Shown here one piece after another: positions 20,377 to 59,300 of a stretch of DNA of 64,000 nt. A program made the position numbers and the translations under genes. Numbering within the stretch: the first letter of the stretch is position 1; the number at the start of each line of letters is the position of its first letter. A model generated the notes under the pieces. That model did no database searches and was not told the origin of the DNA. It saw nothing but the letters and a program-made list of their open reading frames with translations. The DNA comes from Medicago truncatula (Eukaryota > Streptophyta > Magnoliopsida > Fabales > Fabaceae): the NCBI RefSeq assembly GCF_003473485.1, contig NC_053042.1:11552501-11616500 (forward strand), in the 5' to 3' direction.

Positions 20377-20631
20377 TTATATATCATACTTCTTCAGTTC
20401 CTTCTCAATCAGCTTATTGAAGCACTCTCTCAATACTTCAGCTATCAGGTCGTCTGGTAGATTTTTTTCCTTCAAGCTCTCAGTCAACTTGTTAGATCTC
20501 TCCAGATCCGGCAAGACCTCTGTTTGAGAACTGGGGCCGGAAATCACAAGAGAGGACAACATATCACAAAGCTCATTTGCGATATTATTCTTTCTTTGCC
20601 TAAAAGCTAGTTTCACCTTCTTCGTAGTCAT
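20377..20631 (-). CDS. MADS-box-like small protein, internally deleted
   Basis: 84 codons on the minus strand starting MTTKKVKLAFRQRKNNIANE. The start MTxKKVKLAF is the hallmark of plant type I (M-gamma, AGL80-like) MADS domains. In those, an IxNDSARKxxF-like segment stands between KLAF and KRKKG; here it is missing and RQRKNN follows at once. The rest (MLSSLVISGPSSQTEVLPD, then ERSNKLTESLKEK and CFNKLIEKELKKYDI) keeps the spacing of the later MADS domain but little of its sequence. Without the deleted helix, DNA binding is doubtful. It could be a decayed gene that happens to stay open, or a small diverged one. Confidence 0.45.
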   Translation of the reverse strand: MTTKKVKLAFRQRKNNIANELCDMLSSLVISGPSSQTEVLPDLERSNKLTESLKEKNLPDDLIAEVLRECFNKLIEKELKKYDI

Positions 20632-20819
20632 GTTCGCAACACAACTACAAAGAACATAATAAGAATCAGAATTTTTGTGTGCGTTATTTGCCTAGTGGCG
20701 TTTGGATTTTATAGCGCAATTTTCGCCAACCCTGTTTGATTCACAATCGAAAAGATATTCAATAGTATACTTTTACCATATTTTAGAATGTCAAGTTAGC
20801 GTATTATATTAAATTTTTT

Positions 20820-21109: not shown

Positions 21110-21236
21110 AAAGATTAAAAATTATAACAAAGGATAAAATATCGCAGAGTTGTGAGATCACTCTCCTTTGTGCTGCCATTCTTTCTTTGCTTATACGCAA
21201 GTTTCATATTATTTGTTTCACATTCTTCCTAGCCAT
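21110..21236 (-). pseudogene. MADS-box-like remnant, second copy
   Basis: From ATG at 21236 the minus strand reads MARKNVKQII then a stop. One frame over it reads MKLAYKQRKNGSTKESDLTT followed by L, which resembles a type I MADS domain (KLAY...KRKKG...KVSELTTLC). As in the neighbour at 20377-20631, KLAY is joined directly to xQRKN, with the intervening MADS residues absent. Upstream text (gcaacacaa...acaagaa(a)tca(t/g)aatttttgtgtg) is shared by the two copies, so they are a tandem pair. A frameshift and early stop make this one dead. Confidence 0.55.
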
Positions 21237-21454
21237 GGTGGCAACACAATTGTAAAGAAAGTAACAAGAAATCATAATTTTTGTGTGTGTATATTTGAAT
21301 ATTCAATATCAATTAATGTATAACAAAGAAAAGTTTTTTTTTCCTCAATTTTTTTTTTTGACATAGAAAAGTTTTTATTTTGACAAGAGCAACAAAGAAA
21401 AGTTGTTACAAATTATTTTATTTTTATGAATTATTTAAAATTATTAGATTTTAG

Positions 21455-23240
21455 GCCAAATACCTCCCGCGTTCCTTTAAGTTATATGTTTATAATAGAT
21501 TAGTCCTTTAAAATTTTTTTCGCTACCAATTGGTCCTTTAAGTTGCTTTTTATTACAAATTGATCCTTTAAGTAATAAAATATTTACAATATATTCCATC
21601 TTTTCAGCCAAATTCGTTAAAAAGTGCTCATGAACCATTTAACATTAAGATGGTAGGTTCAAAAGTGCTTATGACATCCAACATGATTAATTATACACAT
21701 CTTCTTCTTCTTCTTCTTCTTCTTCTTCTTCTTCTTCTTCTTCTTCTTCTTCTTCTTCTTCTTCTTCTTCTTCTTCTTCTTCTTCTTCTTCTTCTTCTTC
21801 TTCTTCTTCTTCTTCTTCTTCTTCTCTTCTTCTTCTTCTTCTTCTTCTTCTTCTTCTTCTTCTTCTTCTTTCTTCTTCTTCTTCTTCTTCTTCTTCTTCT
21901 TTCTTCTTCTTCTTCTTCTTCTTCTTCTTCTTCTTCTTCTTCTTCTTCTCTTCTTCTTCTTCTTCTTCTTCTTCTTCTTCTTCTTCTCTTCTTCTTCTTC
22001 TTCTTCTTCTTCTTCTTCTTCTTCTTCTTCTTCTTCTCTTCTTCTTCTTCTTCTTCTTCTTCTTTCTTCTTCTTCTTCTTCTTCTTCTTCTTCTTCTTCT
22101 TCTTCTTCTTCTTCTTCTTCTTCTTCTTCTTCTTCTTCTTTCTTCTTCTTCTTCTTCTTCTTCTTCTTCTTCTTCTTCTTCTCTTCTTCTTCTTCTTCTT
22201 CTTCTTCTTCTTCTTCTTCTTCTTCTTCTTCTTCTTCTTCTTCTTCTTCTTCTTCTTCTTCTTCTCTTCTTCTTCTTCTTCTTCTTCTTCTTCTTCTTCT
22301 CTTCTTCTTCTTCTTCTTCTTCTTCTTCTTCTTCTTCTTCTTCTTCTTCTTCTTCTTCTTCTTCTTCTTCTCTTCTTCTTCTTCTTCTTCTTCTTCTTCT
22401 TCTTCTTCTTCTTCTTCTTCTTCTTCTTCTTCTTCTTCTTCTTCTTCTTCTTCTTCTTCTCTTCTTCTTCTTCTTCTTCTTCTTCTTCTTCTTCTTCTTC
22501 TTCTTCTTCTTCTTCTTCTTCTTCTTCTTCTTCTTCTTCTTCTTCTTCTTCTTCTTCTTCTTCTCTTCTTCTTCTTCTTCTTCTTCTTCTTCTTCTTCTT
22601 CTTCTTCTTCTTCTTCTTCTTCTTCTTCTTCTTCTTCTTCTTCTTCTTCTTCTTCTTCTTCTTCTTCTTCTTCTTCTTCTTCTTCTTCTTCTTCTTCTTC
22701 TTCTTCTTCTTCTTCTTCTTCTTCTTCTTCTTCTTCTTCTTCTTCTTCTTCTTTCTTCTTCTTCTTCTTCTTCTTCTTCTTCTTCTTCTTCTTCTTCTTT
22801 CTTCTTCTTCTTCTTCTTTCTTCTTCTTCTTCTTCTTCTTCTTCTTCTTCTTCTTCTTCTTCTTCTTCTTCTTCTTCTTCTTCTTCTTCTTCTTCTTCTT
22901 CTTCTTTCTTCTTCTTCTTCTTCTTCTTCTTCTTCTTCTTCTTCTTCTTCTTCTTCTTCTTCTTTCTTCTTCTTCTTCTTCTTCTTCTTCTTCTTCTTCT
23001 TCTTCTTCTTCTTCTTCTTCTTTTTTTTAGACCGAATAACACACATATGAGCTATAGTTTTGAGAGCAATGAATTTGGACAAACCAACTTAACACATTAA
23101 GCATCCACATAAATACTTTTTGATTAAGTTTGATGAAATTAGGATAATGATGCAAATATTTTATGACTTAAAGGAACCAATTTATAACAAAAAAAACTTA
23201 CAAGACTAACTTGTTATAATCATGTAACTTTAAGGACGGA
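21455..23240. mobile_element. Foldback element hosting the TTC tract
   Basis: The outer arms are imperfect reverse complements. The left arm (about 21470-21640) has 'cctttaagttatatgtttataatagattagtcctttaa' and 'aaattgatcctttaagtaataaaatatttac'. The right arm (about 23090-23235), reverse-complemented, gives 'ccttaaagttacatgattataacaagttagtcttgtaa' and 'aaattggttcctttaagtcataaaatatttgc'. Arms of ~150 bp without coding capacity suggest a MITE or MULE-type element. The microsatellite fills its centre. The target duplication was not resolved. Confidence 0.65.
21701..23022. repeat. Giant (TTC)n / (GAA)n microsatellite, about 1.32 kb
   Basis: Roughly 440 CTT units with no purine anywhere on the plus strand. 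The only irregularities are about 19 single-base slips, either a lost T (ttctcttc) or an added T (ttctttcttc), which shift the phase without breaking the pyrimidine tract. The longest uninterrupted run is ~60 units (about 22564-22751). The three ORFs of 450-466 codons crossing it (poly-Leu/Phe/Ser on plus, poly-Arg/Lys/Glu on minus) are by-products of the repeat and not genes. Confidence 0.97.
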
Positions 23241-23254
23241 AAATGGTTATTGGA

Positions 23255-23345
23255 AAAAACTCAAATCCCACATCGGATAGATAAGACTCTTGATGAAAAT
23301 ATATAAAGAGGAGGCAATCATCACCTTACAAGCTGGTTTAGTGAA
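23255..23345 (+). mobile_element. TRIM-type LTR fragment
   Basis: Contains 'cccacatcggatagataagactcttgatg' and 'ataaagaggaggcaatcatcaccttacaagctggttt', matching the LTR of the TRIM at 31913-32326. Truncated at both ends. Confidence 0.7.
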
Positions 23346-23593
23346 GATACAAAAAAAATTGACGTGGTTAATAAATTAATTACCCACCATTCTTCAAAGA
23401 TAATCTAAAAAAAGCTTGAAACAATCATCAACCAAACTTTACTTACTTTTAAGAATATTTTTGTTTTTTTGTTTTTTACAAAAAAATATTATTCTCGCAT
23501 GTTGCCATAGTGGTGCCAACCTAAGGTTGAGGATTCATGTTTTATGGTTGGAAAAATATTTATTATTTCCTAAAATAATATGTAAATGGTTAA

Positions 23594-24840
23594 GGTACCG
23601 TTTGACCCGACTTTTTTTTGAGCTTTTCTAAGTTTTTAAGGAGAAGCTAGGCCAAACACAATATCAATAAAATACCTTCGAAAAAAAGTACTTTTTTTAG
23701 AATGCATAAAATTGAATGGAATGAGCTTTAACCAAAAGTTGTTGAATGCTACTTCAAAAAACTATTTCTCCTCAATTTATTTCACAAGCACCTCTCTTCA
23801 ACTCCCGCCGGCAACCTTTTGTTTTATTTTTTCAATATGCTTTTTTCTTTCATTTTATTATTATTTTTTTTTTAACCGGTTCATTTAATTTTTTAATGAG
23901 GTTCCATTTAAGTTTATTATCTATTTTTTTAAGGAATTTTATTATCTTTTTATCACTTATATATTAATTTCAATATCTTTTGATCATCACAACCTCGCAA
24001 ATATTTGTATTCACGCTGTCAATGAATGACACCGAATATTTTTATTCCCTTTCTTCAACCACGGAAATACACACACACGTTAGCGTTTAGAGTAATACTT
24101 TATGTTCTTCTTTCTGTTTTTTTTTGTTATGCTAATGCTTATAATTTTTGTTAGTGTTGTGTAATGCGTATAATTATTTTTATAAAATTTTGATTTTAAT
24201 TAAAAGTACAAGTGTAGTTGCCTAAAAAAATTATACTTATATATAATTTACACATATGTATTGTAAGAAACTATGCATATCTTTTTCTTATTAAAAAAAC
24301 TAAACATATCTTTTTCAGTGACACCAACAATGTAACAAATATAATATTATATAATATAAATTCTTATCTTTTTGACCAACACTAAAAATATGGCATTCTT
24401 ATAACAAAATTTGTTATAGAGTATAATTGGAAAAGATACTGTACAAATTTGTATTCATGTTACACAAAATAAACGTCATTGAGTAAATATAGTATTGGTA
24501 AAAATATATCTTTTATATTTTAAACATTTTTTCCCTCCAAAAAATATTTTAGACATTTTTTTATTTATTATGTTAATTCATAATGAATTCAAAGTTTTTT
24601 TATTTATAGACAATGCATAAATATATGCAAGGTCCCGGGTTCGAACCCCAGACACCACCAAAAAATAATAAATTCAAAGTTTTGTACAATATTTTGCCAA
24701 ACAGCTTTTAACTCAAAAATAACTTTAGAACTAAAAAAAATAAAGAAACCAAACAGCTTTGGCCTTTTTCTTAAAGAGCTTTATTTTAATTTGTTTTAAA
24801 GTAGCTTTTAGACCGAAAAAAAGCCTGGCCAAACGGTACC
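23594..24840. mobile_element. PIF/Harbinger-like non-autonomous element, copy 1
   Basis: Terminal inverted repeats ggtaccgtttgacccgac and, at the right, gcctggccaaacggtacc, flanked by the 3-bp duplication taa (23591-23593 and 24841-24843). TWA duplications and GG..GTTTG ends fit the PIF/Harbinger (Tourist) group. It is 1247 bp including a nested SINE. No transposase is visible. A second copy in the opposite orientation lies at 47976-49257, and a solo end at 45225-45397. The right end sits only 190 bp before the DRP1C-like start codon. Confidence 0.85.
24598..24665 (+). mobile_element. Short SINE nested in the PIF/Harbinger-like element
   Basis: 68 bp with the pol III box B phrase ggtcccgggttcgaacccc and an A-rich end, flanked by near-perfect duplications taatgaattcaaagttt (24581-24597) and taataaattcaaagttt (24666-24682). 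The uninterrupted target is seen in the inverted sister element at 48141-48166, which confirms the insertion. Confidence 0.8.
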
Positions 24841-25031: not shown

Positions 25032-28000
25032 ATGGCGACTATGACGAGTTTGATCGGTCTGATCAACAAGATCCAACGTGCATGCACTGTCTTAGGTGAT
25101 CATGGAGGTGAGGGTTTGTCACTCTGGGAGGCTCTTCCTTCCGTCGCCGTCGTTGGTGGACAGGTCTCACTTTTTTCATTTTGATAATTATATATCTTTT
25201 GTGTCTAGAACATTTACTTGTATATTGTGTTATTCATTTTTGGTAATGTATGTGGAAAATGAATACCAGAGTTCAGGGAAATCGTCAGTGTTAGAGAGTG
25301 TTGTTGGAAGGGATTTTCTACCACGTGGATCTGGTATGTAATTAATTTGTTTTAATTTTTTTGATTATTATCTGTTTATCAAAATCTAAATCATAGTAGT
25401 TATTTATTGATGTCCTTGATACCAAGTGTGAGTAATGGAATTGGATGTGGTATTTGATTAAGATCATTGAGTGCATTTAGATCAACAACTTAATTAAATG
25501 TCTATTATATATGTTAAGAACCAACACGAGAATAAAATAATCGTAGCAGAGATGAGGATGTTGCGTAGATGTGGAAAATAAGCTTAGGTGGTTTGGGCAT
25601 GTGAAGAAAAGACTTGTAGTTTCTACAATAAGGAGAGTAGATATGATGGAGGATAGTTAGATCACATGAGGCTAGAGATTAATGAATTGGACCCAAATAT
25701 GGTCTATGATAAAACATTATGGTATAATTTGATCCATCTAACCGACTCCACTTAGTGGGATAAGACTTGATTGTTGTTGTTGTATAAATGTTAAAAAGTC
25801 CCACAATAGATGAGATATGGCCTGACCATGTTCTCACCTTTCAAATCGATTTTGTTAGGCTGAGTTAGGTCCAACCCAAATTCTAATATGGTATCAGAGT
25901 CTACCCAAGATCTTTTTGGGCTACTGCTGTCAGGTCACCACTATCAGGCTTATATATTAACTATATCTATAATCAAAGGCATAATTTGGTTAAATTGTTT
26001 CATATAAATTACATTGGAGAGCTTATTAAAATATGCTTAAAGCAGTTTATGAACATGTCATAAATTATTTTCATAAGCTCTTCCAAACTCTTACACATTT
26101 CTTTATTGCATAAGATAAACTTAAATAACATGTAAGTTCTTCCAAACACACTCTTAGTAGATGCCTTTATGATATGGTGGTCATGATGTTTTTTCTTTAT
26201 ATTTGAAGATAAATATCATTTCATTGATGTGTGGAGAGTGTGTTTTTTTTATTTATTTTTATTAACTATTTGCAAGGTATTGTCACACGGAGGCCGTTAG
26301 TGTTGCAACTACACAAGACAGATGATGGACAACAAGATTATGCCGAGTTTCTTCATGCACCTAGAAAGAGATACACTGATTTTGGTAATAAAGTTTCTCA
26401 GAACATTTCTTTTAATATTTCAGTAATGATAAGCTTCCGACATCAGGTAGCGAATGCCAATTTTTTAGTCTTCGATTGATGATGGTCGGTTTAACCATCT
26501 GCTGCAAATTTGCTGCTTAATATGATACAAAAACCCACCCTATTTGCTATAATTTGCGACATAGTTAGTTTTCTTCAGAACCAACGATAAAATAGAAAAG
26601 TCTAACATGGACAACAGAAACATTAAGATAAGGTATCTTTCCACAAAGGAGCCAAAGATACCTGAATATAAATATTTTGGATTGGGTGAATTTCATAAAA
26701 TATGATAGCTGTAGGAGATAAGGGAAATGCCTCCATCGAAGAAATGTTTCCCACAGTTTCCATATCTTTGTTAGATGCATATCTTTCTTTGATTTGCAGT
26801 TTCCAAAATTTACTAGACTGATGAAGGCCCTTCATTCTTCTACACACTTCCACAAGAAAGTCGCCTTTATTTATACATTTTATATCCCTTTCATTTTTAA
26901 ATTCAATTGTTTTTTGACAAATGAAAATGGTGGAATTTATGAAAATGATATTGACATTAAAGATTGTTATGTATATAATATGAAAACCATCCATGCATGT
27001 TCACTTAACAACTTAAACTGTTAGATAATTGGTTTATGACAGTGTCTCAGACCTTCTTGACCAAGTGGTGTTCAGTTTAATCATTGATTTCCCCATTCTT
27101 CTAATAAAAAGTTGAGTTTTAGTAAAATAGGTGAGCTTGTGCTTTATTCTTTTTCCAATTTCAATGTGCTGATGCGAGGAGGATTATTATCGATATAATA
27201 CAAAACCATTTACGTAATATGGGATAGTTAGTTCACGAAAAAGTTATTAATTGTAGATAGTAGCTGATCTTTTTGTCCAAAAAAAAAGATACGATTTTCT
27301 ATTTTATCCCATGCAGCTGCTGTAAGGCAGGAAATTTCAGATGAAACAGATCGTATAACTGGGAAGTCAAAGGCAATTTCAAACATTCCAATTCAACTCA
27401 GCATACATTCTCCAAATGGTATTTATTTACATTACCTCTTCATATCATGATAGACGAAAACAATTCTATTTATGTTTTATAACCATTTTTACTTAGCAAT
27501 TAGTGGCAGAATGTGTTGAAAAGTAAGGCTAATCATAGTAGATTAGTTGAAATAATGTTCTCTACTAAATATTGAAGGACTTTTTGTCAGATATGAGGAA
27601 GGCACATATTTGAATAACTAAGTTTTGACTGGTTGATCCAGTGTGAAAGGAGAGCCGTGGGGTTTCTCTTTTTCAGTTTTTCTTAATTAGCATTCTTTGG
27701 TCTTTTAAAAATAAACATTATAACTTAATGGGTTAATAGTGTTTTTCGCCCCTGTAATATATGTCATTTTCGGTTTTCGCCCCTATAAAATTTTCGGTTT
27801 GATTTGCACCCTTGTAAAATTTTTATTTTCCGGAAAACACCCTTAATAGGCCATTCAAAAACCAAAATTTCTTGAAAAAAAATTCTGAAAATGGCCTATA
27901 AGGGGTGTTTTCTGGAAAATAAAAATTTTACGATGGTGCAAACCAAACCGAAAATTTTATAGGGGCGAAAACCGGAAATGACATATATTACAGGGGTGAA

Positions 28001-31000: not shown

Positions 31001-33604
31001 GGGAAACTCTAATAATTTTATTCTTCGATCAATTTGGTCTAATATGGATGTATTGCTGACAATGTACATCTACTTGGTGCCGGTGCACTCATATATCCGG
31101 AGTTGTAACCATTAGATTAGCTAATGACTTGATTGTTTGGAATTTCTGCAAATATTGCCTCCTCCTTGGATTTCTCTTATCCTTTTTTCTCCACTTAGAA
31201 ATTGTTTATTGTCATCTGCTTTCAGGTCCACCTGGTTTTAAAGGAACTCGTGCGGAAGGCAGTTGCAGCAACTGAGGTTAGCAATGCTTTAAGATGTGCT
31301 AAAATACAAGTAAAACATTATAATATCTTGAAATTATCTTGAACTATTTCATTGGATTAGTTTCTTGTTTTAGATCATCTTTTAAGAATAGTTTTCGTAT
31401 TTACTTAGTTATTACCAGATTTGATTCCCTATCCGTTTAGAATTAGGAGTCTTGTATCCCTATAAATATGGGTTAGCACTTAGTATTTTTTTTATCTAGT
31501 CAATCATCAATCATTTTACCGCATAATTATGTTTTAATAATATTTATTCTTTCTCTTCTCCGTATATCTAAGACCCATAACTTCAACAAGTTGATATAAC
31601 TCTTTAAGATAATGCATGCTTCAATTCTGTTTTGCTGGAAGAAAAAAAAAAAATCTGTCTTCCAGTAGAATCTATAACAAAAGTCTAACTCTCACATTGC
31701 TTGAATTTTATAATTTGTAGTCAGGAAAACCAAGCATAGCTTTTCCACTAGGAAGTTTGAAAGAATAGCCAAGAAACGATTAATCTTTTGTCTTGTTAAC
31801 TTGCTTTTCATAAAATGTGGCTTTACATGAATGGAAATTTAACATTACCTTTTTTTTTCTTTCTTTATAGGCAAATGTTAGCAATTAGTGGTTATGTTAG
31901 TGATGTTAATATTATTAGGAGAAACCCGAGTCCCACATCGGATAGACAAGACTCTTGAGAAGAGTTTATAAAGAGGAGGCAATCCTCACCTCACAAGCCG
32001 GTTTTGTGATGATGAGTTAGGCTACAATTTCAACATGGTATCAGAGCTTGTCGAATTCAAGGGCCGCCTACCTATTCACGCACCAAGCCCCAAAGAGTGC
32101 TGGGCGTGAGGGGGGTGTATTAGGAGAAGAGTTTATAAAGAGGAGGCAATCCTCACCTCACAAGCCGGTTTTGTGATGATGAGTTAGGCTCCAATTTCAA
32201 CATGGTATCAGAACTTGTCGAATTCAAGGGCCGCCTACCTATTCACGCACCAAACCCCAAAGAGTGCTGGGCGTGAGGGGGGTACAAGCCGGTTTTGTGA
32301 TGATGAGTTAGGCTCCAATTTCAACAAATATTACCTAGAATGACCCCCTAATTCACTCAAGATTCAGGAAGTCCGAGGTAAAATGAATAATATACTGTTA
32401 TAACTTAATGGCATGCAGGAATTGAAGAGGTTTCCAACACTTAAAAATGAAATAGCCACAGCTGCAAACGATTCTTTAGAAAGATTCCGAGATGAAAGTA
32501 GGAAGACAGTCACCCGGCTAGTTGATATGGAGTCGAGCTATCTAACAGTAGAATTTTTTCGGAAGATTAATCTTGAACAAGATCAACCGAACCAGAACCC
32601 AAATCGGAATACTCCTAATCCCAATATGGAAAACTTCACAGATAATCACCTCAGGAAAATTGGTAAGTAACTTTATAAATCCCTCCTCAGTCCTCACTAC
32701 ATGAAAGACACAATCATTGATAATTCATTTATTTTGAGTTTAAATGTTGTGGCACGGATGTTTGAAATGCTGTTAAAAGTTATTATAATAAGCTACTAGG
32801 GTTTTAGTCTTGAGTGTACGAGCTCGTCTCACCTTTGTTTCTTGTGTACTACTCTCTTATCTATAGATGTGGTCCATGACCTGATATTATGTTGTTCTTC
32901 CTACCTAGTGGTTGTTACTAATACTATTCCTACTTGTTTTGGATTTTAACTCTACAATATTTACAATCTGTAAAAATCGGAAATTCATGATTCTGAGATT
33001 TTCCTTTTTAAAATCTCATTTTTCATTCTTGGTTGTTAAAACATTTTATGATTCTTATTTCAGGATCAAATGTTAATGCCTATATCAACATGATTTGTGA
33101 CACACTTAAAAATTCTATACCAAAGGCTGTTGTTCATTGTCAAGTCAGAGAGGCAAAGAGATCATTGCTTAATCGCTTTTATGTTCAAGTTGGGAGAAAA
33201 GAGGTATGAGTCTGTATCTTTTTATTTAAATATTTTCAATTATATCGATCCAACTTCAACCTTTTGAAATGTGTTCTTGTCATGTGATTTACACTTAAAT
33301 TTAGTGGGATCTGTATATATTTCAACGGAAGATAGTATGTTAAAAGAAAATTAGTGTGTGTGGTTGGAATTTCTCTTATGTGCCTTTAGTATTTACTTTT
33401 ACGCTTTGCGTTTATGAGACTCTCATGCAAATGAGATCTTGGTGGTAAGGTTAAAACAAAAATGTGTGGTGAATGCAGAAAGAGCAACTCGGAAATATGT
33501 TGGATGAAGATCCTGCACTTATGGAAAAGAGATTACAATTAGCTAAAAGGCTTGAATTGTACAAGCAAGCTAGGGATGACATTGATTCAGTGGCTTGGAA
33601 ATAA
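25032..33604 (+). CDS. DRP1C: Dynamin-related protein, DRP1C-like (phragmoplastin family)
   Basis: Sixteen exons in continuous frame: 25032-25163, 25270-25333, 26277-26384, 27317-27418, 28618-28668, 28777-28838, 29154-29244, 29375-29439, 29526-29720, 29834-29953, 30045-30115, 30730-30955, 31226-31276, 32419-32662, 33064-33203 and 33479-33604. The product is 615 aa; DRP1 proteins are about 610-624. GTPase motifs are intact: P-loop GGQSSGKS (42-49), DLPG (143-146), TKLD (212-215). The middle domain and C-terminal GED follow ([31 protein letters not shown] at the end), and there is no PH or proline-rich domain, as expected for DRP1. The start [20 protein letters not shown] and the ending VAWK resemble DRP1C more than DRP1A or DRP1E. 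The family pinches and tubulates membrane at the cell plate and in clathrin-mediated uptake. Introns 2, 4 and 13 host transposons. Confidence 0.95.
25555..25787 (+). mobile_element. LINE 3'-end remnant with TTG tail, DRP1C intron 2
   Basis: One frame reads [10 protein letters not shown] then RRVDMMEDS, and later '[12 protein letters not shown]'. This is the well-known 3' end of plant LINE ORFs. It closes with agtgggataagacttgattg and TTG units ending at about 25785. A stop after EDS and frameshifts make it inactive. Same family as 13415-13460 and 13930-14830. Confidence 0.7.
25789..25985 (+). mobile_element. TRIM/LTR fragment with primer-binding site, DRP1C intron 2
   Basis: An LTR-like segment starts tgttaaaaagtcccaca and ends before tggtatcagagt at 25889. 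That phrase complements the 3' end of initiator tRNA-Met and is the usual plant primer-binding site. It starts immediately after the LINE tail. A second LTR was not found, so it is truncated. Confidence 0.6.
27730..28015. mobile_element. Mutator-type MITE, intron 4 of DRP1C-like gene
   Basis: A 286-bp element that is nearly one long inverted repeat: left gggttaatagtgtttttcgc, right 'ggtgaaaaacactattaaccc'. The arms pair for more than 120 bp. It is flanked by a perfect 9-bp duplication, taacttaat (27721-27729 and 28016-28024). Nine-base duplications are typical of Mutator-like elements. Confidence 0.9.
31395..31600. mobile_element. LTR-like remnant, intron 13 of DRP1C-like gene
   Basis: Carries 'gaattaggagtcttgtatccctataaatatggg', the opposite-sense counterpart of a block at about 14920-14960. 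No coding part. Boundaries approximate. Confidence 0.4.
31913..32326 (+). mobile_element. TRIM retroelement with three LTRs, intron 13 of DRP1C-like gene
   Basis: LTR 1 (31913-32035) is followed by the primer-binding site tggtatcagagc (32036-32047), an ~70-bp spacer and the polypurine tract gtgagggggg. LTR 2 (32116-32202, lacking the first-third segment with catcggatag) comes next, then a second primer site (tggtatcagaac, 32203), a second spacer and polypurine tract, and a stub of LTR 3 ending tttcaaca at 32326. The whole is flanked by the 5-bp duplication aatat (31908-31912 and 32327-32331). There are no genes inside, so it must rely on enzymes from another retroelement. Confidence 0.88.
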
Positions 33605-46572: not shown

Positions 46573-47975
46573 AAAATGGTTATTTCGTGATGTTTCTTAG
46601 CATTCTTTGAAGTCTAAACATCAATTTTCAGGATGCATTGATTCCATATTTTTTGGCCCAACCCAATTTTTGATAGTTGCGATCTTTTAAATGATAGTTC
46701 TCTGTTAGAGATATGATTTCAGATCAGCAAGTCAAGATCCGCACATGAAGGGTTACTTGTTGAATAAGATATCTTAGGTTTGGGAAGATTAGCTCCAAAT
46801 CAGCTAGGATATAGCATTAATTATCAAAGATAAATCACAAGAGGGGAACCACACCACTTGTCATGCCAAAATATGATAATGGAGCTAACTTTTGTTTCAA
46901 GCGAGGAACTCCTTTTGGCGAAATAATTCTTTAATTCCTTATCCTATTTTTGACACAAGGTTAGGGGGGGAGTTGTGCAAAGGATTGCTTTGGTTTCTGG
47001 GTAAGGAATTGTGAAGGCTTGCACATTGAATCGGAAGTGAAAATTGGTGGCGGTGGGTGGTTGTTAAGCTTACCTCAAAGAGAAGAAAGGTGAGAAATGT
47101 TGGTGGTGAACAATGTCATTTTCACTAGAGCAACTTTTTTTTGCAATCGAATAATTGTCAATGTGTTATATACTTTAAAAATGGGAGAAAAGATTGAATA
47201 TTTTATTAAAATATATTAAAAATGATACGAGTTTTTATTTGGACTATTTTTTTTAGGTTCATATTAAACTTACTCTTAAATATTAGAATTTTTGTTATTA
47301 GAAATATTTTCTCATCAAAAAGCATGTTTAGAACAAATGTTACCTTTTGTACCTCATGAAACCCCACAATCAAAAACATTTTCGCGAGTGTACAAGTCCT
47401 TTGCACACCATCCAGACCATGGGAAAGTTGAGTTGTTGAATTCCATTGGATCCTCAACACTCATTCAGTCATTTGTTTCGGCTTCCTCAACTGCGTAACT
47501 ACGAGGCACATACACTTTATAGATTAGGTGTGTTCCGGTGTCAGACATGTATCATATCTGATACCAACACATGTAATTTCACTGAATTATATGATTTTTT
47601 CAAATTATTAGCGATGTCGATGTTTAAGTGTCTGTATCCATACTTCATTGCGTACATATTATGCTTGAATGAGATTATCGAAAATGATAAACTGAAAGAT
47701 GAAGGAAAATTGGTAGGTTGTGTGGAAATTAGTGGTACCTTCTAAAGTGTGTAATTGTGTTTGGTGAACAATTTGGAATTGCTTACCAACTTGAGCTAGA
47801 TTGATCGATATGATGTTAATGTTGACATCCATTGTCTGTGGTGTAGTAGTAGTAGTCCAGAGACAACTGATAACTTGTTGTACAAGAAATGCAAGTTAGA
47901 TTTTCGGCTGTCTTCTACAACTTAATAAAATGACATCATCTTTTATCATTCTTTGATTTTTAATAAAATGACTTA
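46573..47975. other. Intergenic with one coding-like stretch
   Basis: No recognised gene. The plus-strand ORF 47292-47498 (LEQMLPFVPHETPQSKTFSR, then HHPDHGKVELLNSIGSS) has balanced composition in an AT-rich setting but no family I know. At 47522-47650 there is an opposite-sense relative of the repeat at 12545-12680 ('tgttccggtgtcagacatgt'). Confidence 0.4.
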
Positions 47976-49257
47976 GGTACCGTTTGGTCAGGTTTTTTTT
48001 ACGATCTTAAAGCTACTTTAAAATAAAGTTAAAATAAATGTCTTTAAGAAATAAGTTAAAGTTGTTTGGTTTCTTTATTTTTTATTTTTTAGTTTTAAAG
48101 CTATTTCTAAATTAAAAGTTGTTTGGCAAAATATTGTACAAAACTTTAAATTTATTATGAATTAACATAATAAATAAAAAAATGTTTCAAATATTTTTTG
48201 AAGGAAAAAATGTTTAGAATATAAAATATTTTTTTTTTACAAATACTATATTTACTCAATGACGTTTATTATGTGTAAAAGGAATACACATTTGTATCTT
48301 CATATAAAGGATTTGTTAAATATGTGAATATGAGAAATAATTTAAAGAGGCTCAAATAATAACATAAATAATATCAAAATAGTTTGAAAAATTAAAAACA
48401 TAAATCATCTTATTTAATAAAACATAAATCATCACAAATTTTGTTATAAGAATACCATATTTTTTGTGTCATTCAAAAAGATAAGAATTTATATTATATG
48501 ATATTATATTTGTTACATTGTTGGTATCATTGAAAATGATATGTTTAGTTTTTTTAATAAGAAAAAGATATGCATAGTTTGTTACAATATAAATGTGCAA
48601 AATATATATATATATATAAGTATAATTTTTTTAGACATCTATACTTGTACTTGTGCTTTTAATTAAAATCAAAATTTTATAAAAATAATTATACGGATTA
48701 TGCAACACTAAAAAAAAATTATACGCATTAGCGTAACAAAAAAAAAAACAGACAGCGGACATAAAGTATTACCCTAAACTCCAATGTGTGTGTGTATTTG
48801 CGAGGTTGAAGAAGGGGAATAAAAATATTCGGTGTCATTCAATGAGAGCGTGAATAAAAATATTTGCGAGGTTCTGATAGTTAAACGATATTGAAATTAA
48901 ATATATAAGTGATAAAAAAAAGATAATAAAATTCCTTCAAAAATAGATAATAAAATTAAATGGACCCTCCTTCAAAAAAATAAATTAAATGGACCGGTTA
49001 AAAAAAAAATTGAAGAAAAAAGCATATTGAAATATAATATTAAAAAATAAAATAAAAGGTTGTCAGCGTAAGTTAAAGATAGGTGTTTCTGAAATAAATT
49101 GCGGACAAGTAATTTTTTGAAGTAACATTCAATAACTTTTGGTCAAAGCTCATTTCATTAAGTATTTTTTTTAGTAGATACTTTATTGATATTTTGTTTG
49201 ATCTAACTTCTCCTTAAAAATATAGAGAAATTGAAAAAAAATCGGATCAAACGTACC
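47976..49257. mobile_element. PIF/Harbinger-like non-autonomous element, copy 2 (inverted)
   Basis: 1282 bp with ends ggtaccgtttggtcaggttt and ggatcaaacgtacc, and target duplication tta (47973-47975 and 49258-49260). It is the reverse complement of the element at 23594-24840 over its length, for example 'aaatatagtattggtaaa' there against 'acaaatactatatttactcaatgacgt' here. There is no SINE in this copy and no transposase. It ends ~535 bp before the Sec14-like start codon. Confidence 0.87.
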
Positions 49258-49792
49258 TTAGTCAGGTTTTAGACGGTCTTCTAAGTTAGGGAACCGTATA
49301 GATAAACAACTTATATGTAAGCTTACATAAGCTATTTTTACAACAAATAATAAAAGATTAAATTGTTTTTCATATTATAAGTTGTTTTCATAACCTATTT
49401 TAGTGAACTTATGAAAATAAATATAATTTTTTTATAAAAAATATATCATAAACTATATTTAAATGTTCCCATACAGTCTCGCAAAATTTATATCAAATAA
49501 GTTCCTTAAAAAAAAAAAGTGATTTACAAATAAGTTGCTCAAAATAAAAAATAAAAAATCATGAAAAAGTCAATCCCATATAGATAGATTATTTTTCAAT
49601 GCATATATTTTTCCTGGCAGTCTAATATTCAGCTCAGTTCCGTTATGTCAACGTAATTGTTGCTTTACTGGCTTCTCTAACCTCCACGTTCTTCTTATTC
49701 ACCTCTCTTCAACACATGTTCTTGCCGCCACTCTCAAATAGTGAAACCCAATCATTTTTCCTCTGTCAAATACTCTTTTCTTCTGCCCCCAA
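49258..49792 (+). promoter_or_regulatory. Upstream region of the Sec14-like gene
   Basis: Contains another small MITE-like AT-rich patch at 49300-49480 ('aacaacttatatgtaagcttacataagct'). From about 49650 a pyrimidine-rich stretch (cctctcttcaacacatgttc, caaatactcttttcttctgc) looks like the 5' leader. Confidence 0.4.
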
Positions 49793-56370: not shown

Positions 56371-59300
56371 ATGTGTAAGACAATTCAAATACATGGATTC
56401 CCATCTAATGTTTCTGCTGAAGAGGTAATGAAATTTTTGGAGCAACATGCTGGATTCCAAACTGTTCTAGCTGTAGAGATTAAGCATCATAAAGATGGAG
56501 ATTCTATGACACATGTTAATGTTCAATTCACAGACAAAAAAAGTGTTGAAACAATCTTAAACTTAGTTGCTAAACACCTATCTTACAGTGGAAATGTTCT
56601 AAATGCTACATTAATAAAACCTGACATTTTGTCAAAGCCAAGGATCTTTGCTTACAACGTGGATGGCGTTGGAATACACTTTGGATGTCAAACATCCAAG
56701 AGAAAACTTAGTGTACTTTGGGAACATTCAAATGCTTCTGTTAAATTCGGAGCCAGATTAAGAAAAATGTATATATTTTTCTGCTATTTGTCTAAGGATT
56801 ATAAGATGCAGATCAATTCCGAGAGCATATCGCGAATTGAGATGCATCGCTCACATTGTCGTACCAAGAAACTTCTCCTTTTTCAGGTTAGTTGCTTTAG
56901 TTTCAGGGTTAAATATGTTTTTAATCCCTGTAAAATATTCCTTTTTTGAATGTAGTCCCTATAAAGTTTTAGTCATTTTTAGTCCCTATCTTAATTGTCA
57001 GTTACGCAGTGCTCCTCGGATCTACGAAAAAGATGTTTCTGAAATCAAGTACTTTAAGGAAGCTTATGACAACCATTGGTTTAGAAGTGTTGATTTCACC
57101 CCATCATGCTGCATTGGCCAATCATCATCTTTATGTTTTGAGCTTCCACAAAATACCGAGGTTCCGAATTTTTGTCAGTATTATAGAAATTTTTATAAAG
57201 TTGATAACACCTTTGATCTTGAGAAACAACTTGGTTTCTCATCAAATTTGAATTTTGTCCCCATGGTGATTCCGCCAGAAGGATTCAACTTGCCATACAA
57301 AATTCTGTTCAAAATCAACTCACTAGTTCAACATAGTTGCCTTCCTTTGCAAGCAATTGACACTAATCTTTTTCATATGGTTGATCCACAAAGAATAAAA
57401 TTTGAATATGTAGAAAGTGCTTTGAATAAGTTATATCAGATGAAAGAATGTTGCTATGATCCTGTTCAATGGTTGGAGAAACAATATCAAAGATACTCAA
57501 CAAATAGTTCAATTCCTATATCTAGTTCCATTTCTTTAGATGATGGATTGGTGTATGTTCATAGAGTAAAAGTAACTCCCTCCAAAATATATTTCTGTGG
57601 TCCTGAAGTGAATCTTTCGAATCGAGTTTTGCGCAACTATCCTGAAGACACCGATAACTTCCTCCGCGTTTCTTTTGTTGATGAGAACATGGATAAACTC
57701 CGTTCATCTGATTTGTTGTCAGGTTCCTCTCGTATAGATGTGGACGGAGAATCAAAGGTTCATCAAAGGGTACTGTCTACACTAACGAACGGCATAGAAA
57801 TCGGTGACAAGAAGTTCGAGTTTCTTGCTTTCTCGTCAAGTCAATTGCGCGATAACTCAGCGTGGATGTTTGCACCGAGAACTGGACTAACTACGGGTGA
57901 TATAAGAAAATGGATGGGAGATTTTCATGAAATCAAGAACGTGGCAAAATACGCGGCAAGGCTTGGTCAATCATTCAGTTCTTCAAGGGAAACAGTGAGT
58001 GTTGGAAGACACGAAATCGAAATCATTCCTGATATAGAATTGAAACGAGGCAAAATCAAATACTGTTTCTCTGATGGAATAGGGAAAATATCGTATGAAT
58101 TGGCTCAAGAAGTTGCTGAAAAATGTGGTTGCAAGGATCATATAATTCCATCTGCATTTCAAATCAGATATGGTGGATACAAAGGTGTTGTTGCTGTTGA
58201 TCCTAACTCATCAACTAAACTTTCCTTGAGAAATAGCATGTGCAAGTTTAAGTCAGAAAACACGAAACTAGATGTATTGTCATGGAGCAAAAACAAACCG
58301 TGCTTTCTTAACCGTCAAGTAATTGTTCTGTTGTCCACACTCGGTGTCAAGGATCGAATCTTTAAAAGGAAGCAAAGGGAGATTGTTAATAAACTCAAAA
58401 TGATATCAAGAAAACCATTCAATGCACTAGACATGATGTCACAAGGAACAATTACAGACATGTTAAGGGAAATGATTATTTGTGGATTCAATCCGACAAA
58501 TGAACCTTTTCTTTCCATGATGTTGAGAACAATATGTGCAACAAAGTTACAAGAGTTGCAGCTCAAAACTAGGATTTTTGTTCGGAAAGGAAGATCAATG
58601 TTAGGATGCTTGGATGAAACAAGGACATTAAAATATGGTGAGGTATTTGTGCAGATATCTCTTCCAAGAAAAAATGTTATGTCCTCAATTTCTTCTAAGG
58701 ACATTGGAGCAAAAAAAGGAAAATATATTGTTAAGGGGAAGGTAGTTGTAGCCAAGAATCCATGTCTTCATCCAGGAGATGTAAGGATTTTGAGAGCGAT
58801 CGATGTACCCTCCTTACATCATATGGTAGATTGTGTTGTTTTCCCACAGAAGGGGAGAAGGTAAGATTTTATTTAAGATTCCATAAATTTCTTATCCATT
58901 CAACATTTGTTTCAAAAACAACATAACTTAATGTAACTATATTTTGCAGTTGATAATATAGCTAGGTATGAGTAAAATAGTATAGGTTTAATATATTTCC
59001 TATCCATTCAATCATTTGTTACAAAATCGTCCATGCAAATATACCACTTTAGAAGATTGATAGCGAAGATTATATTCATTATGCGTATGATGATGTTTTC
59101 TGACTTCAAAGTGATTTCTTGTGTAGACCACATCCTAATGAATGTTCAGGAAGTGATTTGGATGGAGATATCTACTTTGTCTGTTGGGACCCTGCCCTTA
59201 TTCCTCCTCATCAGGAAAATCCAATGGATCATTCACCACCTAAAGTCATGCATGTTGATCATGATGTCACATTACAGGTATTGATCTAAAAAAATTAGAA

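Follow-up and report, generated by a model that had tools for sequence, protein, structure and literature searches.

The GAA/TTC repeat of the human FXN gene, the Friedreich ataxia locus, was seeded in an Alu element and is both intronic and pathogenic. Its alleles are ordinary below 34 units, premutations at 34-60 units and expanded mostly above 100 units, and at this one locus the sizes form a continuum through the premutation range, according to the available portion of the source (PMC13248553). In plants, the IIL1 repeat of Arabidopsis Bur-0 exceeds 200 GAA/TTC units against 0-36 in ordinary alleles, as given in excerpts of its description (PMC5006647); it is likewise intronic and is accompanied by a temperature-dependent growth defect. 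Two groups of transposons have in addition been connected with microsatellites. MuTAnT of Medicago truncatula is, by description, a foldback, Mutator-like element with 9-bp duplications outside microsatellites that mostly inserts into TA microsatellites (PMC4486113, in the part available), while the SaTars (satellite-targeted MULEs) are MULE-type elements for which the microsatellite is the flanking target, in the accessible sections of their report (PMC5907723).

The locus considered here lies in a 64-kb window of the M. truncatula genome, the window being the whole stretch of DNA analysed, and shares with FXN and IIL1 the GAA/TTC repeat and with IIL1 also the plant host. It differs from both in being intergenic, and its seed sits in a transposon. 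While FXN interruptions, in the sources at hand, include GGA and GAG substitutions, the window tract has neither, and while FXN shows a continuum of alleles at one locus, the Medicago genome shows a gap between loci. The family of the carrier element has the foldback structure and 9-bp duplications described for MuTAnT; its copies are flanked by AT-rich sequence, and the microsatellite is internal; unlike the flanking target of SaTars, this microsatellite appears to have grown inside the element.

The tract and its foldback element

The plus strand of the window runs from 21700 to 23028, i.e., for 1329 bp, without a single purine (GAA on the minus strand), and this maximal pyrimidine run resolves into 421 CTT units, 10 CT, 9 CTTT and a terminal CT8, that is, about 440 units with 19 single-T slips and a closing T8. 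Tandem Repeats Finder (TRF) reports 441.3 copies at 21700-23022 with 97% matches and 2% indels, and the longest unbroken CTT stretch has 62-63 units. The earlier note had described a purine-free tract of about 440 units, which these counts bear out; the extent it gave, 21701 to 23022, located the tract itself but not its bounds, the start being one base earlier and the end six bases later. The window is free of N, contains no second pyrimidine or purine run of at least 35 bp in its 64 kb, and has no Rfam family at the gathering score. Hundreds of pure GAA/TTC units thus stand at one locus, and in size and purity the tract belongs with the known GAA/TTC hyperexpansions, its position being intergenic and not intronic. 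It brings two further features: its seed is borne by a transposon that has many unexpanded sisters, and the same genome holds three companion giants.

The tract lies in the middle of a foldback transposon that measures about 560 bp. The left arm (21454-21699, plus strand) opens with the perfect terminus GGCCAAATACC at 21454, and the inverted right arm (23029-23256, minus strand) ends in a degenerate terminus that agrees at 8 of 11 positions. The two arms are imperfect inverted repeats with 77% identity across 219 aligned bases, and their score of 129 is above the maximum for 500 shuffles (96) and for up to 500 random pairs from the window (88). When the assembly from which the window comes (430 Mb in 42 contigs) was searched with the left arm, at least 53 matches were obtained, 40 of 284 candidates being scored, and 30 family loci were fetched, namely the window copy and 29 sister copies, 27 of which had both ends projected. 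Twenty-two of these 27 span 545-592 bp and the remaining five 483, 516, 528, 797 and 1258 bp, with family termini close to GGYCAAATAYC. An exact 9-bp target duplication borders five sisters (L026, L030, L038, L045, L050), another five match at 8/9 (L027, L029, L032, L044, L047) and 17 fall below 8/9; over the 20 well-ended sisters the mean duplication match was 0.71 at 9 bp vs. 0.39-0.50 at 7, 8, 10 and 11 bp. Long inverted arms with common termini recur across many copies, and judged by structure the family is of Mutator-type foldback kind. The placement of the tract in a foldback element, proposed before, therefore stands, its inverted flanks being one copy of a repeated family. The TA microsatellites into which MuTAnT mostly inserts are not a feature of this family, whose short flanks are AT-rich with a (TA)n beside one right-end projection only (L046).

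No target duplication is recognisable around the window copy, with 3/9 bases matching. Its right arm is adjoined by a repeat fragment (23247-23348, plus strand) that is 83% identical to 31912-32013 and presumably copia-LTR-like, and the fragment may have deleted the right target duplication. Elsewhere in the window, a 167-bp unit is tandemly duplicated at 31957-32283; we take it to resemble a copia LTR with its primer-binding site.

The start of the tract coincides exactly with a site (21692-21710, plus strand) at which the sisters carry TATACACA or a variant of it, followed by TTTTCTTCTTCTTG or a variant. All 28 of the 29 fetched sisters that are readable at this seed site (the 29th, L049, ends before it) have one to three TTC units, eleven sisters having a longest TTC run of 9 bp, nine one of 6 bp and eight one of 3 bp. 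The gap between left and right arm is 74-136 bp in 25 of the 27 sisters with a right-arm match, 382 and 784 bp in the other two, and 1330 bp in the window copy, where the tract comes after TATACACA and the loop has lost some 90-100 bp, as far as AGACCGAATAACACAC. A genome-wide search for the element end joined to at least five TTC units, a pattern that could miss sisters with a diverged end, returned one match, the window itself, and no copy examined other than the window copy bears a long tract at this position. Because the sisters hold one to three units at the site and the pattern of five or more matches the window alone, the CTT tract appears, from sequence comparison, to have grown within the element from such a seed, and the element does not appear to have inserted into an existing repeat.

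Size classes of CTT arrays in the genome

Across the 430 Mb, (CTT)40 has 80 matches and all 80 lie within four loci: the window tract (1329 bp, plus strand), L021 at C3:43.22 Mb (1115 bp), L022 at C3:46.12 Mb (600 bp) and L023 at C5:14.12 Mb (about 1324 bp, beside an AGG array). These four giants range from about 190 to 440 units. Outside them, no array with 40 or more pure CTT units was found genome-wide and only 10 pure 32-unit windows occur, and the longest of 28 other CTT arrays fetched (25 with at least 20 units and one of two endings, and three from the top of the ten-unit matches) has 32 units. Ordinary and expanded sizes are hence separated between loci of a single genome and not between alleles, and the split between the four giants and the ordinary arrays loosely resembles the expansions of IIL1 and FXN. 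In a limited search of the published literature, and so as a weak negative, no Medicago GAA/TTC giant was found.

The true tract could in principle have only tens of units, inflated by the assembly to its present length. This we consider very unlikely, as the four giants have differing flanks and no array reaches 40 pure units below them; assemblers, moreover, collapse such long arrays more often than they inflate them. The differences in the retrieved flanks hold for all four giants, the other three having no match to the flanks of the window tract.

Several neighbouring features of these arrays were also recorded. In L023 a pure (AGG)28.7 array at 2760-2845, itself without slips, is joined directly to the 444-unit AGA giant, and two 53-bp minisatellites (L021:1692-1883 and 2410-2550) adjoin the giant at C3:43.22 Mb. 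Among the 28 other CTT arrays sampled, 21 (within L055-L080) have a homologous right flank and 14 fit a pattern like TATTTCTCTTATTTTGAATC; the homologous flanks imply that most of the sampled 20-30-unit arrays belong to one other repeat family, and that it is common, in this sample, for CTT arrays to be carried by repeats.

Single-T slips in the giant arrays

Interruptions were compared genome-wide by counting slips and substitutions that were well flanked, i.e., bordered by five perfect CTT units on both sides. Every well-flanked slip lies in the four giants (20/20 CT and 34/34 CTTT, 54/54 in total). Pure ten-unit windows number 2560 genome-wide, 837 of them in the giants and 1723 elsewhere, and in the latter no well-flanked slip was seen vs. 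about 111 expected at the density of the giants. Well-flanked substitutions, counted as 11 + 1 + 7 over the three unit positions, were found exclusively outside the giants (19/19), where they sit in 18 arrays of 33-105 bp each. The Fisher values for location in the giants vs. elsewhere, 2e-26 for slips and 6e-18 for substitutions, are nominal, because windows overlap and slips within one array are possibly non-independent. The two spectra are therefore fully separate, substitutions in arrays of up to about 100 bp and slips in arrays of 600 bp or more, and this size divide coincides with the reach of short reads, which can span arrays of about 100 bp and cannot span those of 600 bp or more. A control with viral contigs, on which we do not rely, gave 12 contigs with (CTT)20, the pyrimidine run being 63-104 bp in 11 and at least 255 bp in the twelfth.

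Nine pairs of diverged repeats in the window provided a measure of ordinary mutation, with 315 substitutions vs. 28 single-base indels (288 vs. 28 when one self-compared palindrome, whose 27 substitutions may be doubled, is excluded). Given this excess of substitutions, 19 indels without any substitution in the tract are unlike ordinary mutation. Longer interruptions of the form CTTTT were also present, once in L021 and four times in L023.

The earlier note had regarded the slips as marks of the expansion of blocks, and this part of it was not supported: neither the window array nor those of L021 and L022 repeat an adjacent pair of spacings, as higher-order blocks would, and the well-flanked slips are confined to the four giants. 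A significant block score in L023 was discarded, since it arises from the neighbouring AGG array. The slips could nonetheless be real, CT and CTTT being scars of out-of-register template switching at expansion junctions that record blocks, and their restriction to the giant arrays would fit such an origin. Same-sign slips cluster weakly in the window tract (p 0.03), slip spacings there are more regular than expected by chance (p 0.014), sign ratios vary among the four giants (p 0.023) and L021 has a surplus of equal spacings (p 0.03), all values being uncorrected for multiple tests; these four patterns are hints of real inherited structure. Real single-base interruptions are also reported for human tracts, with A or G indels and (GAAAGAA)2 in a 112-repeat FXN tract, in the available part of PMC8307455. 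The same location is, however, predicted by an error process limited to arrays beyond the span of short reads, and together with the lack of a recurring spacing pair this leaves real slips a tentative reading, doubtful but not negligible.

Nanopore studies of FXN, as far as their accessible text goes, report scattered A and GA interruptions or 1-8% indels and ascribe them partly to artefact (PMC12154355, PMC10053634). Read on the opposite strand, A and GA interruptions are CTTT and CT. Since the two spectra split at the span of a short read and the nanopore FXN papers report a similar spectrum, consensus errors at sites that short reads cannot polish are the best account of the slip distribution. 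The assembly was presumably built from long reads. A broader alternative would join the scars to the size classes, so that GAA/TTC arrays in this genome either stay below 40 pure units or reach about 190-440, the latter being dynamic, and the slips are template-switch scars recording the expansion. It would imply a genome-wide switch like that of FXN, and the history of each giant array could then be read from the array itself; we judge it unlikely.

Proposed course of the expansion and the neighbouring genes

We place at roughly two chances in three the reading that a foldback copy with a one-to-three-unit TTC seed landed at this site and hyperexpanded to about 440 units, with most or all slips being long-read consensus errors. 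One Mutator-type foldback copy would have landed between MAP70 and DRP1, bearing, like its sisters, the short TTC seed beside the left arm. Slippage would first have lengthened the seed to a few tens of units, after which the array may have passed a threshold of instability and been carried to hundreds of units by large expansions during replication or repair, as for GAA/TTC in FXN and IIL1; no intermediate step was seen among the copies examined. The length of the tract would be roughly right, and most or all of its 19 single-T slips would be uncorrected long-read consensus errors, which short reads could not have removed from an array longer than themselves. A tract of this kind would tend to change its length, and polymerases may stall on it.

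Not one substitution occurs in the 1329 bp of the tract (upper bound 0.0023 per site), whereas none of the near-full-length relatives among the matches listed exceeds 88% identity to the left arm, with one 39-bp piece at 92%. On this comparison the expansion would be young or continually homogenised. If substitutions arise at about 7e-9 per site per generation, this bound corresponds to roughly 0.3 million generations.

A telomeric origin of the signal was also weighed, (CCCTAA)n being miscalled as (CTTCTT)n in nanopore data in the available part of PMC9414165. The site is, however, internal (11.57 Mb along a 56.7-Mb contig), the tract is part of a transposon with a TTC seed at the same position in its sister copies, and the run structure of the tract has no seven-base period, and on these three grounds a miscall of telomeric repeats, being hardly credible, was rejected.

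A dynamin-related protein 1 gene has its first coding exon at 25032-25163 on the plus strand (DRP1A chain 3t34_A, E 1.4e-11), and we assume the gene to be of the C subtype (DRP1C). Its start codon at 25032 is about 2.0 kb beyond the tract end, and MAP70 (Pfam MAP70, E 2.5e-54) is on the opposite, left side, in agreement with the earlier placement between MAP70 and a DRP1-type gene some 2.0 kb from the start of the latter. The tract is accordingly intergenic, not intronic, the 3' end of MAP70 being only approximate. Between tract and DRP1 stands a separate element of 1247 bp (23594-24840, plus strand) with inverted ends GGTACCGTTTG and TAA at both flanks, presumably PIF/Harbinger-like; pieces related to it occur at 47973-49260 with 83-90% identity. 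With 2 kb and another element in between, the effect of the tract on DRP1 is probably little.

At IIL1 the expansion yields 24-nt siRNAs and H3K27me3, in the accessible part of PMC12177298, and by analogy the tract could be a cis-silencer that brings small RNAs and repressive chromatin to DRP1, the more so as it is longer than the 200 units of expanded IIL1 alleles in the excerpts available (PMC5006647). The IIL1 and FXN repeats are, however, intronic, while the window tract is intergenic and about 2 kb upstream, and the 1.25-kb element separates it from the gene, so that IIL1-type silencing of DRP1 is possible, not favoured, and in our estimate quite improbable. The same window also has an RNA-dependent RNA polymerase gene at 57500-58864 (Pfam RdRP, E 3.7e-143). 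On the other side of the tract, a minus-strand open reading frame at 20380-20634 has no Pfam match and is, we assume, like a degenerate type I MADS protein, and 21178-21297 is a 72% duplicate of 20587-20690.

Slips in a long assembled repeat can be checked cheaply by setting its interruption spectrum against the one found in short arrays of that unit within the assembly. The transposon family in turn constitutes a natural experiment, with many similar seeds of one to three units, one of them hyperexpanded, and three further giants elsewhere in the genome; with so many unexpanded sisters beside the giants, what tips a repeat over the threshold therefore becomes testable.
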